A stretch of DNA of 45,482 bases, taken from Mycobacteriales bacterium. GTDB lineage: Bacteria > Actinomycetota > Actinomycetes > Mycobacteriales > SCTD01. A program made the position numbers and the translations under genes. Numbering within the stretch: the stretch's first letter is position 1; every line of letters starts with the position of its first letter. Location: the NCBI GenBank assembly GCA_030447385.1, contig JAUJOY010000002.1, positions 1 to 45,482 on the forward strand, given 5' to 3'. This document shows positions 1-7,237 of this stretch, one piece after another. A model generated the notes under the pieces. It saw only the letters and a program-made list of their open reading frames with translations, was not told the origin of the DNA and searched no databases.

Positions 1-839
1 CCGGCGGCCAGTCGCTCCTCGAGCTGCGCCGTCCGGTGAGCCCGCAGGGCCTCGCGCAACCCGTTAGGCAGCATGATCGCGCGCCGGCCGGCCCGGCTCT
101 TTGGCTCGTCGAACACCAAACCCTTGCCGACCAGGCGCTGCATCGAGCGTTTGACCGTGAGCGTGCCGGTGTCGAGGTCAATGTCCTCCCAGCGGAGGGC
201 GAGGGCCTCGCCCTGGCGGAGCCCGAGTGCGAGGGCGACTGACCATCGAGCCTCGTTGCGCAGCCCTCGCGCGGCGGCCAACAGCGCCCGAGCCTCAGTG
301 GCGCTGAAGGGGACGACCTCCTCCCGCCGCAGCGACGGTGCATCCACCAGCGAACAGACGTTGCGAGCGATCTTGCCGCGCTGCATCGCGACCTTGAGCG
401 CGCGCGACAGGATCCGGTGCAGCTGCAGGATCGTGGACGAGGCGAGGCCCTCGTCCGCAAGCTCGATGTACCACGCTTCCAGATGCTCTGGCTGGAGCCG
501 GTCGAGCCGGTGGTGTCCGACTGCCGGGACGATGCGCCCGTTGACCTTGCCGCGGTAGCCCTGCAGGGTCGAGGCCCTGACCTTGCGGATGGCGATCGTG
601 TCGAGCCAGTGGCCGAGCCACTCGGCGACCGTCGGGGCGCGACCGGCGGCCTGGACCATGCCGCTGTCGCGCTGATGCTCGAGGGCCCGCACCTTGCGTA
701 CGACCTCACCTCGCTTCGCCGCCGAGACATGCCTCCGGTCTCGCTGCCCCTCCCGCTTGAGGCCCATTGAGACGTAGCCGTGCCAACGCCCGACGGCGTC
801 TTGGTGGATGGAGCTCTCGCCGTACGCGGATCGGCTCAT
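1..839 (-). CDS. int: Tyrosine-type site-specific integrase, 3' end cut by window
   Basis: The reverse strand reads continuously from ATG at 839 to the window edge (279 residues) with no stop, so the C-terminal part lies to the left. The N-terminal part resembles an arm-type DNA-binding domain (residues 1-55), followed by a core-binding SAM-like domain (about 65-155) and the start of the catalytic domain. The first catalytic arginine is seen in ALGLRQGEALAL (R208), and a PKSRAGRR segment with the usual beta-strand lysine follows at about 246. The His-x-x-Arg box and the Tyr are off the window. GGAGAGG lies a few bases upstream of the chosen ATG; an in-frame ATG at 857 is an alternative start. 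The excisionase-like gene lies directly upstream on the same strand. The likely role is integration and excision of the element that ends near 8,003. Confidence 0.9.
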   Translation of the reverse strand, partial: MSRSAYGESSIHQDAVGRWHGYVSMGLKREGQRDRRHVSAAKRGEVVRKVRALEHQRDSGMVQAAGRAPTVAEWLGHWLDTIAIRKVRASTLQGYRGKVNGRIVPAVGHHRLDRLQPEHLEAWYIELADEGLASSTILQLHRILSRALKVAMQRGKIARNVCSLVDAPSLRREEVVPFSATEARALLAAARGLRNEARWSVALALGLRQGEALALRWEDIDLDTGTLTVKRSMQRLVGKGLVFDEPKSRAGRRAIMLPNGLREALRAHRTAQLEERLAA

Positions 840-902
840 CGAGGTCCTCTCCTTCATGCTGCCGTGGGGGCGCCGTCACGCCGGGGTGCCATCCCGCCCC
901 GA

Positions 903-1091
903 CTATGTCTGCATTGGGCTGCTCCGTCGGAGGGACGAGGCGAAACTGTGGACGGCGTCGGCGGGGACGCGCCGGCAGCGGCCGATGTGCACCGACGTGA
1001 GCTGGCCGCTCTGCAGAAGTTCGTACACCTTGGATCGCCCGATGCCCAGGGCTGCGGCCGCCTCGATTGGCGTCAGTAAGACCTTGTCCAT
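903..1091 (-). CDS. xis: Excisionase / AlpA-type helix-turn-helix DNA-binding protein
   Basis: This 62-residue protein has the compact winged-helix pattern of the excisionase and MerR-like HTH_17 families: LTPIEAAAALGIGRSKVYEL, then a wing with HIGRCRRVPADAV. Such proteins either bend attachment-site DNA to favour excision or act as transcription factors. It lies 63 bp upstream of the integrase on the same strand, the usual xis-int order in actinobacterial elements. A copy of the 41-bp repeat (1166-1206) lies about 75 bp upstream, oriented toward this gene. The role as Xis is inferred from size, fold and position; it could instead be a regulator. Confidence 0.82.
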   Translation of the reverse strand: MDKVLLTPIEAAAALGIGRSKVYELLQSGQLTSVHIGRCRRVPADAVHSFASSLRRSSPMQT

Positions 1092-1165
1092 GTCGTCTCC
1101 CTCAGGTGGCCGCTGGCTCGGCTGTCGACGACGCCGGTGGCGGTTGCGGCAAGATGCCCTCAGTC

Positions 1166-1206
1166 ACTGAAGGTGCGATCCGCGGGGGGTCTGTGACAAA
1201 GGATCA
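1166..1206 (-). repeat. 41-bp repeat, copy A (upstream of xis-int)
   Basis: Read on the reverse strand, this 41-bp stretch matches copy B at 2253-2293 at 37 of 41 positions, including an unbroken TGTCACAGACCCCCCGC core and a CGCACCTTCAGT end. The copies are inverted relative to each other about 1.05 kb apart. Each one reads toward the genes it precedes: this one toward xis-int, copy B toward mobC-relaxase. It could be an operator shared by two divergent operons, or a duplicated origin of transfer. Confidence 0.8.
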
Positions 1207-1232
1207 TGCAGATCTTTCCGTCGTGAGATTGC

Positions 1233-1352
1233 GGGCAAGGTTCGTGAGGGCGATGAGCAAGACAGTGGGGGTCCGGGCAAGACATCGGGCAAGACTGTCC
1301 ATGCCTGGGCTGAGGCCGGCGGGCAAGACTCTCTGACGCTGCGGGCAAGACT
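1233..1352 (+). repeat. Iteron-like cluster of GGGCAAGAC(T) units
   Basis: Six copies or near copies of GGGCAAGACT lie in one orientation at 1233, 1255, 1275, 1287, 1321 and 1343 (the first two are degenerate). The start-to-start steps are 22, 20, 12, 34 and 22 bp, close to multiples of one helical turn, so the units would face the same side of the DNA. No convincing gene covers the cluster. Arrays like this are typical binding sites for replication initiators, excisionases or partition proteins. It lies between the xis-side 41-bp repeat and a remnant gene. The function is inferred. Confidence 0.6.
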
Positions 1353-1675
1353 CATCAAGGAGGCGGCGGGACTCCCGAAGGAGGCCTCGAGGGCGCCGCG
1401 GACGAAGCGGAGGGCGCAGCCCCGCGCGCACACCCTGAGACGCCGGTCCCCCGCGTCGTGAGCTCTTGCCGTTGAAGCCGGCGTGCCATTTCCTGCGGCG
1501 GCACCGGCGGACGCGGAACACCCGGGCCAGGCCTCGTGGCTGCGCAGCTCGGTCGGCGCCAACCACGCTCGCAGTCTTGCCCGCAGACGGAGGAACAGGC
1601 AGAGCAAGTTATGGCTCCGGGGCCCAGACCGGGCGCTGCGCGCCCGGCCCGGCCCCCGTCGCCAAGGAGGAGAGT
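1353..1675. other. Gene-free stretch
   Basis: No reading frame here shows recognisable protein features on either strand. Long frames exist but look like GC-driven open frames rich in Arg, Pro and Ala. A single reverse-oriented match to the iteron core (AGTCTTGCCC) lies near 1571-1580. Confidence 0.4.
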
Positions 1676-1697
1676 GCTCGCCCGGGCGCGGGCGAGC
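1676..1697 (-). terminator. Hairpin, probable terminator after the 1711-2173 gene
   Basis: GCTCGCCC and GGGCGAGC form a perfect 8-bp GC stem around a 6-nt loop, about 14 bp beyond the stop at 1711 of the reverse-strand gene. No T-run follows, which is common for actinobacterial terminators. Confidence 0.45.
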
Positions 1698-1710
1698 GGG
1701 GACCAAGCCG

Positions 1711-2173
1711 TCACTCGCCGAGTTCGCGGCGGTAGTCGCCGAGGGGAAGCCAGACGGCGGCGTCGGTCTGGGTGACGCGCAGGTCGCGGTTCCAGTCGAA
1801 GTGTTGCTCCCAACGCTCCAGGCCGGCTCGGGCGCCTTCTGGGTCCTGCAGGGAGTACCAGGCCAGGCCGAGCAGGAAGTGCACATCGGACAGGACCATC
1901 TGGTTCTGGACCTCGCCGGGGTCGTGTGCGCGGGCCCGCAGCCGTCGGGTGATGGCGAGCAGCAGCGTCGCCGCCCCGACGTCGCTGTCGGGCCGGGAGG
2001 TCAACGGCCGGCAACGGCAGCAATGGCCCCCAGAGGATCAGCGCGGCCTGTAACAGGGAGCAGGTCAGGTCAGGTAGCCCCCGGCGGGCGGCGAGCCAAC
2101 CGATGACGGCACTGTCCTGCGCCATGGTCGGCTGCGGTGCACTGGTCGGGGTGTCACTTGCCGGATTGGTCAT
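1711..2173 (-). pseudogene. Unknown-function gene, apparently frameshifted
   Basis: Two reverse-strand frames join into one plausible protein of about 150 residues. The first runs from ATG at 2173 through an SAVIGWLAARRGLPDL segment and a hydrophobic patch. The second takes over at about 1995-2004, has helical repeats resembling a TPR-like motif (LSDVHFLLGLAWYSLQDPEG), and ends at 1711. The frames overlap at VDL/LTS, so a single-base indel or a ribosomal slip is needed to link them. A separate start at TTG 2004 for the downstream part is possible. I do not recognise the family. The gene lies between the two 41-bp repeat copies. Confidence 0.5.
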
Positions 2174-2252
2174 GTCGGCACGGTGTGCCGGGACGACGCC
2201 GTCTGTCAGCACCGCGGCGGAAACCGGTGGACAACTACCCCGTCAAACTTCT

Positions 2253-2293
2253 TGATCGTCTGTCACAGACCCCCCGCTGAACGCACCTTCAGT
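2253..2293 (+). repeat. 41-bp repeat, copy B (upstream of mobC-relaxase); candidate oriT or operator
   Basis: This is the partner of copy A (1166-1206). Copy B also contains a perfect short palindrome, GTCTGT-C-ACAGAC (2258-2270), directly followed by a C-rich tract. An inverted repeat beside a nick region is a common layout of transfer origins next to mobilization genes. It ends 33 bp before the GTG start of the mobC-like gene. A role as promoter or operator is equally possible. Confidence 0.75.
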
Positions 2294-2326
2294 AAGTAGG
2301 TGGATGGACTTCCGGGAGGGGCAGAC

Positions 2327-2770
2327 GTGAGCCAGGACCAGCAAGATGCCAGCCCGGCGAGCGACGGGCACCCGGCCGAGCGGCCCGTGGTGGTGCGGCA
2401 CCGGCAACACCGCTTCCCGGCCCGCAGCCGGGTGGTGAAGGTGCGCTACGACGAGCAGGAGTACGCCGCCCTCGCCGCCGCGGCAGGTCGGGCCCAGTTG
2501 ACCCCGAGTGGCTACCTGGCCCTGGCCGGCCTTGCCTCGGCGGGGGACGGTCCAGCGCCATCGCAGTCGGCCGACCGGGAGCTGCTCGCCGAGCTGCTGG
2601 TGCTGCGGACAGTGATCCGCCGGTACGCCGTCAACGTCAACCAGGCCGTCGCCGTGTTGCACAGCACCGGCGAGGCACCGCCGTGGTTGGCCCGGGCGGT
2701 CGCCGGCGCCCACCGGGCGGTGCTGAGCGCTGACGCGGCGACCCAGCGCGTGGGCCGCCGGATGGGCTGA
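2327..2770 (+). CDS. mobC: MobC-like relaxosome accessory protein
   Basis: The protein has 147 residues from GTG 2327, chosen because GGGAGGGG lies 5-6 bp upstream; a GTG at 2300 would add nine residues. A disordered N-terminus is followed by VVKVRYDEQEYAALAAAAGR and LTPSGYLALAGL, the ribbon-helix-helix-like pattern of plasmid mobilization relaxosome (MobC) proteins, then a helical region with RRYAVNVNQAV, a typical MobC-type NxxQ/NQAV segment. Such proteins bind near oriT and help the relaxase nick DNA. The stop lies 5 bp before the relaxase start, so the two are probably co-transcribed and translationally coupled. Confidence 0.78.
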   Translation: MSQDQQDASPASDGHPAERPVVVRHRQHRFPARSRVVKVRYDEQEYAALAAAAGRAQLTPSGYLALAGLASAGDGPAPSQSADRELLAELLVLRTVIRRYAVNVNQAVAVLHSTGEAPPWLARAVAGAHRAVLSADAATQRVGRRMG

Positions 2771-2775
2771 CCAAC

Positions 2776-4296
2776 GTGATCGGCAAGGTCTGCAAGCGCG
2801 GCAGCGACGTACGACGGCTGCTCGGCTACCTGTTCCGCGAGGGGCTAGCGGGTGAGCACGGCCTGACCGCCTCGCACACCGCGCCAAGGCTGATCGCAGG
2901 TTGGGACGGTGTCGACGGTCTCGAGCCGCCACACACGCCCGCCGGCGGGCGGGACCTGCGCCTGCTGGCGGCCGCGCTGAATGCCCCGTTGCTCGCGGCT
3001 GGCCTGGACCGGCAGGATTGGCAGGCAGCTCGGCCGGTCTACCACTTGGCCATCGCCGCGGCGGATGAGGACCGGCAGCTCTCAGACGAGCAGTGGGCCG
3101 ACATCGCCGCTGAGTACGTCGACCGGATCGGCCTCGCGCCCCGGGGCGACGAGGAGGCGGTGCGCTGGGTCGCGGTCCGGCACGCCGACACCCATGTCCA
3201 CGTCGTCGCGACCCTCGCTCGGCAGGACGGGAAGCGGGTCTGGCCACGAAACGACTTCTACCGCTCGCGCGAGGCCAGCCGGGCGGTTGAGGAGCGGTAC
3301 GGGCTGCGACAGACAAGCCCCGCGGATCGGACCGGTCCGCGTGAGGTCACCCGTCCAGAACGACGCCGTTACGCGGCGGACCAGCATCGCGCCCGCCAAG
3401 CAGGGCGTTCTCCGGCCGCCGGGCCGGATCGTGACGTCCTGCGCCGTCGGGTTCGCGTCGCCGCCGCTGGAGCTAACGACCTACCGACCTTCCTCGAGCG
3501 ACTGCGCGCTGACGGCGTTCTCGTCCGCGAGCGCTTCAGCCAGCAGGCCCCGGAGCGGATCACCGGCTACGCCGTTGCGCTGCCAGGCGAGGGGCAGCCG
3601 GTGTGGTTCGGGGGTGGGAAGCTCGCGCCGGACTTGAGCCTGCCCAAGCTGCAGGACCGGTGGATGCCGGAGCCGCGACGTCCTGACCCGTACCTGCGTC
3701 GACCAGGGCGAGAGGAGCGCGGCGAGGCGCTGACGTCGTTCGAACGCTTCCGCGTCCTCAAGCACGCGGAGTCGGCAGCCCAGGAGGCGGCCGATCATGT
3801 CCGGGCGTCGGCTGGCGACCCCACCGCCGCGGCGGACACGGCGTGGGCGGGCTCGGACCTGCTCGCAGCCACCGCTCGACTCGTAGACGGGCAACACGCC
3901 GGCCCTGTCACCCGCGCCGCCGACCTGTTCGAGCGCGCTGCCCGCGAGCGCAATCGGCGTGCGCCGCAGCCGTCGTCAGCCGGCCATCGCCTCCGTGGGG
4001 CGACGACGGCCGTGCTTGCCGTCCGCAGGCTGCTGCCCGCCGAGACCCGGCAGGTTTTGGCTCTGCTCGCACAGCTGCAGTCCTTGGCCACCGCGGTCGC
4101 CCATCTCCGCGAGACGCAAGGCCTCGCCGCCCAAGCGGCCGCCGCACGAGCCGCCGCCGAGCAACTCGCGACCGTAAGCACAGCCCAGAACGGTGTGCCT
4201 GCCACCCCACCGTCGAGCGACCGGATCGTGGTCTACGGCCCTGCCGCCGTCACTCACCGTCCGCCACAGCGGCCGGCCGGCAAGACTTTTCGGTGA
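2776..4296 (+). CDS. mobA: Relaxase / mobilization nuclease, MOBP-like
   Basis: The protein has 506 residues from GTG 2776. The N-terminal third has the relaxase signs: a candidate catalytic Tyr at 18 (LLGYLF), a VYHLAIAAA strand (His90) and the metal-binding three-His motif HADTHVHVVATL (H136, H140, H142). These fit the Relaxase/VirD2-like family, which nicks oriT and pilots the strand into the recipient. The C-terminal part is Arg- and Ala-rich helix with no recognisable helicase or primase. No coupling protein or type IV secretion genes are visible, so the element probably relies on a helper conjugation system. It forms a two-gene unit with the MobC-like gene. Confidence 0.87.
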   Translation: MIGKVCKRGSDVRRLLGYLFREGLAGEHGLTASHTAPRLIAGWDGVDGLEPPHTPAGGRDLRLLAAALNAPLLAAGLDRQDWQAARPVYHLAIAAADEDRQLSDEQWADIAAEYVDRIGLAPRGDEEAVRWVAVRHADTHVHVVATLARQDGKRVWPRNDFYRSREASRAVEERYGLRQTSPADRTGPREVTRPERRRYAADQHRARQAGRSPAAGPDRDVLRRRVRVAAAGANDLPTFLERLRADGVLVRERFSQQAPERITGYAVALPGEGQPVWFGGGKLAPDLSLPKLQDRWMPEPRRPDPYLRRPGREERGEALTSFERFRVLKHAESAAQEAADHVRASAGDPTAAADTAWAGSDLLAATARLVDGQHAGPVTRAADLFERAARERNRRAPQPSSAGHRLRGATTAVLAVRRLLPAETRQVLALLAQLQSLATAVAHLRETQGLAAQAAAARAAAEQLATVSTAQNGVPATPPSSDRIVVYGPAAVTHRPPQRPAGKTFR

Positions 4297-4373
4297 GCGG
4301 CCCTGTCAGCCGCGAGGCGCGCCGATGAAGTCGAAGTCCTCCCCACGGTGAGGTCACTCCCTAGGCTCGTTCC

Positions 4374-4580
4374 CTGATCACAGGCGAGCTGAAGGCCAAG
4401 ATCGACCGCGTCTGGGACGCGTTCTGGTCCGGCGGCATCTCGAACCCGCTCGAGGTCATGGAGCAGATCACCTACCTGCTGTTCATCCGGCGGCTCGACG
4501 ACCTGCACACCGCTGCCGAGAACAAGGCCAACCGCCTCGGCCAGCCGATCGAGAACGCCGTCTACCGTAAGAGCGAGGAT
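4374..4580 (+). pseudogene. hsdM: Type I modification methylase HsdM, N-terminal remnant
   Basis: From CTG 4374 the frame reads ITGELKAKIDRVWDAFWSGG, then a segment ending in YLLFIRRLDDLHTAAENKA. This is the conserved start of the HsdM N-terminal (HsdM_N) domain. Similarity stops near 4575 and the SAM-binding and NPPY parts are absent, so only about 65 of some 500 residues remain. The frame has a TAG four codons before CTG, so no better start exists. The remnant probably marks an earlier type I restriction-modification locus carried by the element. Confidence 0.78.
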
Positions 4581-4591
4581 CAACATCGAAC

Positions 4592-4780
4592 GTATGCTCG
4601 CGACGTACAACCGCCGGCCGCACTGCCGCGGAGGAAGCGCTTGCGAGGTACCCGGAGGCGCGGACGAGGACCAGGGACTTTGCGGCAAAACCGTGTTGGG
4701 CGGGCTGGAACACGACCGACAGGACGGCCGCTTCGCCGTACGGTGTGACCATCTCGATGGTCACGAGGAGTCAGGCATGA
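4592..4780 (+). pseudogene. Possible C-terminal scrap of an unrecognised protein
   Basis: An open frame without a convincing start reads EEALARYPEARTRTRDFAAK, then a CWAGWN motif, SPYGVTI and a TGA that overlaps the antitoxin ATG as ATGA. Such overlaps are typical of genuine gene ends in operons, and the frame has natural-looking composition, but I do not recognise the family. It may be the tail of a gene fused by deletion to the hsdM remnant. Confidence 0.25.
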
Positions 4781-5022
4781 GCGAGCGCACCGTCAGCGTG
4801 GCTGAGGCCAAGGCGCATCTCAGCGAGATCATCGCCGCCGCCGAAGCCGGAGAGGACGTGGTCATCACCAGGCGGGGCGAGCCGGTCGCCACCCTCTCGC
4901 CGCTGCCGAGGCCCAAGAGGAAGATCGACCTCGACTGGCTGCGTGAGATGACCGCCGGCATGCCCATGGGCGAGGACTCGATGACTGTCATCCGGCAGAT
5001 GCGCGACGACTACCGCTACTGA
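4777..5022 (+). CDS. vapB: Phd/VapB-type antitoxin
   Basis: The protein has 81 residues from ATG 4777 with upstream GAGGAG. The N-terminus, SVAEAKAHLSEIIAAAEAGE followed by VVITRRGEPVATL, is the Phd/YefM-type DNA-binding fold. The C-terminal tail (DLDWLREMTAGMP and following) would wrap around and neutralise the toxin. Its stop (TGA 5020-5022) overlaps an ATG at 5022 that begins the ancestral toxin frame. It likely represses its own operon. The partner toxin appears damaged. Confidence 0.88.
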   Translation: MSERTVSVAEAKAHLSEIIAAAEAGEDVVITRRGEPVATLSPLPRPKRKIDLDWLREMTAGMPMGEDSMTVIRQMRDDYRY

Positions 5023-5474
5023 TGCTGTAAGTGGACACCAGCCTCCTCGTGTCGCTGATCGCCGCGGAGCCGAGCACTGCGCCCACTCAGTCATGGCTCG
5101 CGCAGCAGTCCAGGGAGCAGCTCGTCATCAGTGACTGGGTCGGCACCGAGGTGGCCTCGGCTTTCGCCGCGATCCAGCGGAGCGGCGGCATCGACGATCG
5201 AGGACGTGTGCGGGCGGCCGCAAACCTCAAGGCGCTCGTCACCGCCGCCTTCACTGTCCTGCCGGTGTCTCGGCAGGCGTTCCGGGCCGCCGCTGACATG
5301 GCGGGACTCGCCGAGCTGCGTCTGCGCTCGGGCGACGCGTTGCACATCGCCGTCGCCGCGGAGCACGGCTCAGGTCTGGCCACCCGCGACGCCGCACAGG
5401 CCCAGGCAGCCGAGGCGCTCGCGTGCCGTCACGGCTGGTGGCGGGTGCTGCGAGCGGTCCGTCATGAGCGGCGG
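5022..5474 (+). pseudogene. vapC: VapC-type PIN-domain toxin, with early stop and 3' frameshift
   Basis: The PIN core runs from the VDTSLLVSLIA strand (first acidic residue) through SDWVGTEVASAFA to SGDALHIAVAAEHG and LATRD, matching VapC ribonucleases. The ATG at 5022, coupled to the antitoxin stop, reads ATG CTG TAA GTG GAC: a stop sits where VapC proteins usually have Tyr or a similar residue. Translation could restart at the GTG at 5031. Near 5418-5422 the frame also slips: a one-base insertion would give RVPSRLVAGAASGPS and a stop at 5474, a natural-looking VapC end. Unshifted, the protein runs on to 5582 with an Arg-rich tail. Active Asp/Glu positions appear present, so partial activity cannot be excluded. 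Confidence 0.7.
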
Positions 5475-5841: not shown

Positions 5842-5893
5842 GCGCAGCTGTCACGGACAGGTTTGCGGGGTATCTCGACATCGAGGAGTGGGC

Positions 5894-7237
5894 GTGGCTG
5901 ACTGGGACGACGCGGTCTGGCCGGCCGCCGACTCCGCCCCTACCCGCGCAGACCGTCGCGGCGGGCCGTACAGCACCTATCGCCCCGACCTGCTCGTGGA
6001 GCGCCCGCTCACCCTGGCAGCCGACGTGTCCGAGCTGGCTGGTCGGGTCGAGGCCTCCGTCCGGCGGCTGGGCGAGTTGCCGGGCAGCCGCGGGCTCGAG
6101 GGACTCGCGCGCTTCCTGCTGCGCTCGGAGGCCATCGCCTCCTCCCGCATCGAGGGTCTCCAGGTCTCTCCGCAGCAGGTGAGCCTGGCGGAGGTCGCTG
6201 AGGAGGAGTCCCTCACCGCCGAGAACGTCAACCGGACCGCGAGGAAGGTCGCGGCGAACATCAGTGCGCTTCGCAGGGCCACTCATGAGCTCGCCGATGT
6301 GGAACGGCTGTCGGTGGCCGGCGTCGAGGGGCTGCAGACGCTTCTGCTCGCCGATGAACCACACCTGCACGGCGTCCGAGACGTGCAGAACTGGATCGGC
6401 GGGTCGGACTACCACCCATTGGCGGCGGAGTATGTACCGCCGGCGCCGCCCCTGGTGCCAGCGTTCGTCGCTGATCTGGTCGCGTACATGAACGGCGGTG
6501 ATCACGCTCCGCTCGTCCAAGCCGGCCTGGTGCATGCGCAGTTCGAGACGATCCACCCGTTCCGGGACGGCAACGGCCGGGTCGGGCGCGCCCTGATCCA
6601 CACGGTGCTAGTGCGACGCGGCCTCACTAGGCACGCCGTCCTGCCGATCAGCCCTGTGCTGCTGACTCGCTCGCAGGAGTACGTGCAGGGCCTGACGGAC
6701 TACCGCTACAGCGGCCCGGCCGCGAGCATGCAAGGGCAGCAGGGCGTCTCCCAGTGGCTCCGTGTTTTCTTGCAGGCGGTCGGGATCGCCGTCACACAGG
6801 CCGAGCAGTTCGCCGTCAGCCTGGAGGAGCTCCGTCTGCGCTGGGAGCAGGACCTCGCCGCGAAGCGGCGCGAGCAGAACCTTCGCGAAACGCCGCGCGC
6901 TGACTCGGCCACGTCACGGATCCTTGCGACCTTGCAGGAGCACCCGGTCCTGACGACGGCGAGTGTGATGCGACTGTTCAACGTCAGCAGGCCGGCGGCC
7001 GTGACCGCTCTGGACGAGCTGACCTCCGCTGGGGTGCTGTCCAAGCGGCGGCTCGACCGCCGCACCGGCGGCTACCTAGCCATGGACGTCTTCGCACTCA
7101 TCACCACCGCCGAGCGGCAACTGGCGAGCACCCGCTGGGACACCGGCACCGCCAAGCCGGCCAGACCCGCTCCGTACCCTGTCGACGGAGTGGGTCCCGC
7201 GCCCGGCGGTGGCGACTCGCCTGACATGGGGGGTTGA
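5894..7237 (+). CDS. Fic-domain protein (putative AMP-transferase) with C-terminal winged helix
   Basis: The protein has 447 residues from GTG 5894, preferred because GAGGAG ends 5 bp upstream; GTG 5888 is possible. The Fic active motif HPFRDGNGRVGR (221-232) is complete, with the catalytic His and the phosphate-binding Asn and Arg residues. The self-inhibitory (S/T)xxxE(G/N) motif is seen at residues 83-88 (SSRIEG), placing it among Fic proteins with an N-terminal inhibitory helix. The C-terminal 110 residues include a winged-helix-like region (VMRLFNVSRPAAVTALDEL). Family members AMPylate target proteins such as topoisomerases or themselves. It follows the toxin-antitoxin and RM remnants as cargo of the element and is likely intact. 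Confidence 0.88.
   Translation: MADWDDAVWPAADSAPTRADRRGGPYSTYRPDLLVERPLTLAADVSELAGRVEASVRRLGELPGSRGLEGLARFLLRSEAIASSRIEGLQVSPQQVSLAEVAEEESLTAENVNRTARKVAANISALRRATHELADVERLSVAGVEGLQTLLLADEPHLHGVRDVQNWIGGSDYHPLAAEYVPPAPPLVPAFVADLVAYMNGGDHAPLVQAGLVHAQFETIHPFRDGNGRVGRALIHTVLVRRGLTRHAVLPISPVLLTRSQEYVQGLTDYRYSGPAASMQGQQGVSQWLRVFLQAVGIAVTQAEQFAVSLEELRLRWEQDLAAKRREQNLRETPRADSATSRILATLQEHPVLTTASVMRLFNVSRPAAVTALDELTSAGVLSKRRLDRRTGGYLAMDVFALITTAERQLASTRWDTGTAKPARPAPYPVDGVGPAPGGGDSPDMGG

Follow-up and report, generated by a model that had tools for sequence, protein, structure and literature searches.

A short directional site before the predicted excision and mobilisation operons in a family of putative mobilizable elements

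The window, i.e., the whole 45,482-nt stretch analysed here, begins inside a tyrosine integrase gene (1–839, minus strand; PF00589/PF14659), which is cut by the contig start. An xis gene on the same strand (906–1091) encodes a protein of 62 amino acids with an excisionase-like HTH_17 domain (PF12728, E = 3e-10). On the plus strand, a mobC gene (2327–2770), for which the GTG start at 2327 was our choice, encodes a NikA-like protein (PF21983, E = 2e-5, just under the curated cut-off). The relaxase gene (2776–4296, plus strand; PF03432, E = 2e-13) is an open frame for 506 amino acids. The genes expected of an IME, namely an own integrase and xis together with an own relaxase and a NikA-like mobC, are all present in the window. 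The ends or attachment repeats of the window element itself were not found, the contig starting inside int. Positions 1–4500 had no Rfam hit, even at E values as high as 1. Genes for a Phd/YefM antitoxin, a PIN-domain toxin-like protein, and a Fic-domain protein were noted beyond the relaxase gene on its right (4777–5399 and 5888–7237).

Two inverted copies of one site lie between xis and mobC. As delimited by the comparison of the inverted pair and by relatives, copy 1 (1166–1211, minus strand) reads toward xis-int, while copy 2 (2248–2293, plus strand) reads toward mobC-relaxase. Positions 1166–1206 agree with the reverse complement of 2253–2293 at 37 of 41 positions, and the widened pair (1166–1211 and 2248–2293) is identical at 40 of 46. 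In 20 order-1 Markov sequences of 4,400 nt each, the top 41-nt inverted match reached 28–30 of 41. With 30/41 as the best value of this model, the inverted 41-bp pair of 37/41 identity described in an earlier, sequence-only reading is confirmed, as is the aim of each copy at its own operon. That reading also mentioned a palindrome. A 13-bp palindrome, GTCTGTCACAGAC, is indeed present in one copy of the window pair (copy 2, 2258–2270), but it does not hold as the key feature, since it occurs in only one of the 19 sites collected below; a shorter palindrome, CTGTCACAG, is exact in 11 of them. In the window genome, a 17-mer core of the site is found in these two places only, with up to two mismatches allowed. 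It was absent from eight other genomes of the genus (at most one mismatch), and the exact 17-mer had no match among viral contigs.

A looser form of the site, GTCACAG-N13-CGCACYTWC (mostly TGTCACAG), was first seen upstream of related relaxases. It was found 19 times in seven related genomes: eight times before mobC(-relaxase), eight times before xis(-int), and three times before other predicted ORFs. The mobC-side sites are those of the window and of the loci labelled C11, C9, G500:C300, G472, G001, G006:C31, and G002:C77 (the last with a 12-nt spacer). The xis-side sites are those of the window, C9:37 kb, C9:421 kb, G472, G002:C160, G500:C167, G006:C231, and G007:C5 (degenerate); the two sites of C9 share an identical 29-nt core. 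The remaining three belong to G500:C300, where a small ORF and a transglycosylase/M23 gene follow, to C1:171 kb, and to G007:C61. Locus L003, of equal length to G500:C300 and with identical site letters, was taken as the same record and counted once.

The looser pattern matched the window genome seven times without mismatch and three more times at two mismatches; the reversed-pattern control gave six matches in all. Six of the seven exact sites are located beside mobC or xis homologues and one (C1:171 kb) beside a hairpin block and repeats, while none is clearly at a host gene. Throughout the order, 15 of 397 genomes matched, five of them from the window's own family, and the control with the reversed pattern matched 12 genomes by our count. 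The ten matches outside the family had no mobC, relaxase, xis, or int match nearby and were, for this reason, treated as chance. A search for the CTTRC variant retrieved three of the 397 genomes, including G716. Eight stretches of viral contigs matched the looser pattern. Matches to mobC, relaxase, or xis were absent from all of them, and just one (L082) had a weak integrase match.

The sequence-only reading had suggested looking for the core beside other mobC–relaxase pairs and had named its absence there as evidence against a common function. The exact core was absent in relatives, but the looser one was present before mobC in eight of the ten relaxase loci that include an N-terminus among 24 genomes of the family. 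The two exceptions are G553, whose relaxase is ~42% identical, and G500:C152, in which a mobC was not detected. Among 21 more distant relatives on genome contigs, 20 (34–42% identical, some with under 1 kb of sequence upstream of the relaxase) lacked the site, and one, L003 (55%), carried it, so that the absence named beforehand applies to part of the relatives. In G553 and one Streptomyces locus, none of the repeats upstream of mob had, in our judgement, a counterpart upstream of int. Relatives are also encoded by 282 plasmid records, every one less than 60% identical. Eight of 12 xis homologues of at least 50% identity had the site, including one degenerate copy and the C9:421 kb homologue, which was found via the site itself; the four homologues without it were those of G500:C81, G530, G411, and G472:C338. 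A relaxase of this family was not found in G530, G411, and G007, although G007 nevertheless holds two copies of the site. Since most of these genomes are incomplete, such absences of site or relaxase are weak evidence.

The genes for MobC, relaxase, Xis, Int, and a small ORF are recurrent in these elements, and the integrases differ among them. At 35.6 kb in the C9 relative, a tRNA-Arg gene adjoins the integrase gene. The genome contains the 23-nt end of this tRNA twice, once in the tRNA-Arg gene and once at C9:68031, the latter within a partial tRNA of ~50 bp that was not called as a tRNA gene. These direct repeats of the tRNA-Arg end enclose an element of ~32 kb (35.6–68 kb; L052, L177). The pair came from a whole-genome search; no tRNA-end repeats were detected within the collected locus sequences. 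tRNA genes are located near the integrases of G472, G002:C160, G006:C231, G007:C5, and C9:421 kb, and none was found near G500:C167, C11, G006:C31, and G002:C77. The position of the C9 relative between tRNA-Arg end repeats indicates a family whose members integrate in tRNA genes and carry mobilisation genes, and the elements are here taken as tRNA-integrating mobilizable elements. The C9 element has a broken relaxase gene and, as judged by eye, an ORF resembling a metal-transport P-type ATPase.

Several further features lie between the two copies in the window. A cluster of GGGCAAGAC-type repeats (1231–1352, plus strand) is located upstream of the xis-side copy, with one more repeat at 1573–1584 (minus strand). 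Similar clusters were seen upstream of other site copies (L003, L085, L088, L089, L113, and L175), and the 12-mer count of these repeats over the whole window was just mildly above chance. Roles as iterons or as arm sites for the integrase are conceivable. A block composed of GAGCAAGTTA and a hairpin (1602–1664, plus strand) is present on the mob side in seven elements as well as at C1:171 kb and G007:C61. It was at no xis-only locus in a pattern scan of all collected loci, and it was unrecognised at G002:C77. Five of the 14 predicted pairs of its hairpin show two-sided compensatory changes in at least one of eight sequences; other pairs are broken in some of the eight, and the covariation term is small (-0.39). 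The block is a lead, i.e., a candidate oriT that would be separate from the shared site. It is followed by the small ORF (1711–2004, minus strand), which has no Pfam match; the region 1602–2041 is 76% identical to that of G007:C61. Inspection by eye revealed a similar-looking small ORF near the relaxase of C9 and, at G007:C61 (L175, L176), the site, block, and repeats near a serine-recombinase-like ORF. Judging from the latter locus, the site module may perhaps be independent of tyrosine integrases.

When both strands were scanned, all 16 mobC and xis sites pointed into their gene, although these are not 16 independent cases, as homologous sites share their direction by descent. With the start codons chosen by us, the distance from the CGCACYTWC end to the start codon is 37–57 nt for mobC and 55–78 nt for xis. 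Two of the three sites before other genes (L003 and C1:171 kb) have an ATG at exactly position +8. All 19 sites have a purine at this position, and 16 of them have T at +7. If +8 were the transcription start, TGTCAC would be placed at -37 to -32. Neither sigma-70 promoters nor terminators were predicted in 1000–2450, and the expected -10 position is occupied by G+C-rich sequence. The missing sigma-70 match would be compatible with dependence on an activator or on a specialised sigma factor, yet it is a weak point of reading the site as a promoter.

The two copies within an element resemble each other more than copies from different elements do. The comparison included five pairs (window, C9, L003, G472, and G006) in all 120 possible pairings; the linkage in G006 was inferred from two contig ends, with only 10 nt of sequence upstream of its xis copy, and the second copy of L003 precedes a transglycosylase gene, not directly xis. 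The true pairing ranked first of 120, with a mean identity of 0.68 over ~55 nt against 0.62 for the average of all pairings. The CGCACYTWC half agrees in all five true pairs, and four of the 120 pairings do as well. For the 12 nt upstream of the site the true pairing stood at 6/120; the downstream flank carried a weaker within-pair signal (11/120), and the 13-nt spacer none (77/120). The spacers of the window pair agree at 11 of 13 positions, as compared to 4, 4, 3, and 8 of 13 in C9, L003, G472, and G006, respectively. The window pair may, from these letters, have been homogenised recently, which is not obviously so for the other four. The relaxases of C9 and G006 are 85% identical over 191 aa, and both of their site copies differ alike (CCTTC versus CTTAC): CGCACTTAC occurs in both copies of G006 and CGCACCTTC in both copies of C9. 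Two site variants are present in each of the genomes G002 and G007, which speaks against a single host factor. Both copies of an element seem to be read by one factor.

These data suggest a shared promoter-operator of ~60 bp before xis-int and mobC-relaxase, through which one factor would switch both operons; we give this reading an even chance. One factor would recognise the site at the two operons, transcription would change on its binding to the promoter-operator, and excision would be switched together with DNA processing for transfer. The factor would be encoded by the element: MobC would autoregulate its own operon and also control xis-int. The shared operator proposed in the sequence-only reading thus gains partial support from a common site before both operons, its conservation in relatives, and its matching within elements. 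A bolder version, to our mind somewhat unlikely, makes the relaxosome the master switch: its binding site would have been copied to the excision promoter, so that the proteins preparing the DNA for transfer would themselves license or restrain excision, with no dedicated regulator.

The first candidate for binding the shared site is MobC, alone or together with the relaxase. The structure model of this protein is of low confidence (pLDDT 62), with helices at 43–55 and 60–71 and no strand called; the helices could fit a ribbon-helix-helix fold. In a comparison of the MobC profile with solved structures, a NikA chain was matched only at E = 0.089. The MobC segment NALKVLYDD, which we take, as in NikA, to be the contact strand, is identical in C9, G472, and G006, whose sites differ. 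The NxNQ core of the MobC family motif L/FxxxG/SxNxNQxAxxxN, as given in the accessible part of PMC3132442, is present in six of six aligned MobC proteins; the remaining motif fits just in part by eye.

Because the presumed contact strand of MobC does not follow the site variants, a regulator supplied by a helper conjugative element becomes a serious rival. In this alternative, the shared operator would be bound by a regulator of the helper or of the host, as in the case of AcaCD. No PF12696 coupling protein was matched in the window genome, so that a helper would be needed, and the same design is documented for MGIVmi1 and SGI1 in the available sections of PMC4542580. The matching of copies within elements and the two variants per genome in G002 and G007, however, fit an element-encoded factor better than a helper or host regulator, which we consider unlikely. 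Alternatively, a single relaxase might nick both copies, which would then be transfer origins, with one located next to xis-int. The complement of the site contains TAAGTGCG, which we take to resemble the IncQ nick region, in four of 19 sites, and a place before mobC is usual for an oriT. A precedent with two oriTs exists in ICEclc (PMC6561031, in the portion available). Folding energies of hairpins beside the putative nick were, however, like those of shuffled sequences, and none stood out. The fixed direction toward start codons, which includes genes other than mobC, and the separate conserved hairpin block on the mob side (1602–1664) also disagree with nicking at both copies, and two direct copies flanking mobC-relaxase (C9, G472) would risk splitting the element. 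We rate this possibility below the shared operator and find it distinctly unlikely.

If the site were instead recognised as a promoter by an alternative sigma factor of the ECF type, this would agree with the lack of a predicted sigma-70 promoter in 1000–2450, and TGTCACA resembles the ECF41 -35 element. ECF41 promoters continue with N16 and then CGTC, but the spacing at the shared site differs from this, and such a sigma factor is hard to reconcile with seven exact sites in the window genome of which none is clearly at a host gene. Although TGTCACA occurs 11 times in the accessible part of PMC3426412, we hold this reading to be highly improbable. The closely similar spacers of the window pair, as opposed to those of the other pairs, could reflect chance, transposon ends, or an inverted duplication that arose locally and recently and has no function. 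This interpretation is contradicted by the recurrence of the arrangement in C9, G472, G500:C300 (with another second gene), and probably G006, where the halves of the site are kept and the spacers have diverged; it seems scarcely credible to us. The shared promoter-operator remains the reading that we prefer.

For most ICEs, according to the available sections of PMC11963761, the coordination of excision and transfer is unclear. The element family described here provides an answer that can be tested, with a single short site, two operons, and few candidate binders in common. The site can also be used as a tag to find such elements, and the hairpin block is a concrete candidate for oriT. No description of this element family or site was recognised in a limited literature search.

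Several characterized systems resemble parts of this arrangement, as far as the accessible parts of the respective reports go. In ICEMlSym-R7A, the control of excision and transfer is intertwined through RdfS, a winged-HTH excisionase that binds attP and promoters (PMC11963761). Its binding sites have no apparent consensus motif in the text available, and its gene heads the transfer operon, whereas a sharp motif precedes two operons here. ICEclc possesses two related sites, oriT1 and oriT2, for one relaxase (PMC6561031), which would be a likeness if both copies were transfer origins; the copies in the window family, in contrast, resemble control sites with a set direction, and there is a hairpin block apart from them. 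TraA of pIP501 and MobM of pMV158 are transfer proteins that bind a site overlapping their own promoter at oriT (PMC4981023, PMC6540685), and MobM additionally acts on the promoter of an antisense RNA (PMC6540685, PMC4981023). They differ from the window family in that the second copy of the site precedes xis-int here and the binder is putative. The islands MGIVmi1 and SGI1 are integrated, mobilizable elements in which sites for a single regulator precede both xis and genes for mobilisation or conjugation, as is proposed for the window; in MGIVmi1, sites upstream of xis and of a mobI-like gene are targets of AcaCD from IncA/C plasmids (PMC4542580). These islands belong to another phylum, have other sequences, and depend on an activator from a helper plasmid, so that the likeness is one of design only. 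The design is known in principle from the AcaCD-controlled islands, and the site family reported here would be a variation on this known kind of control.
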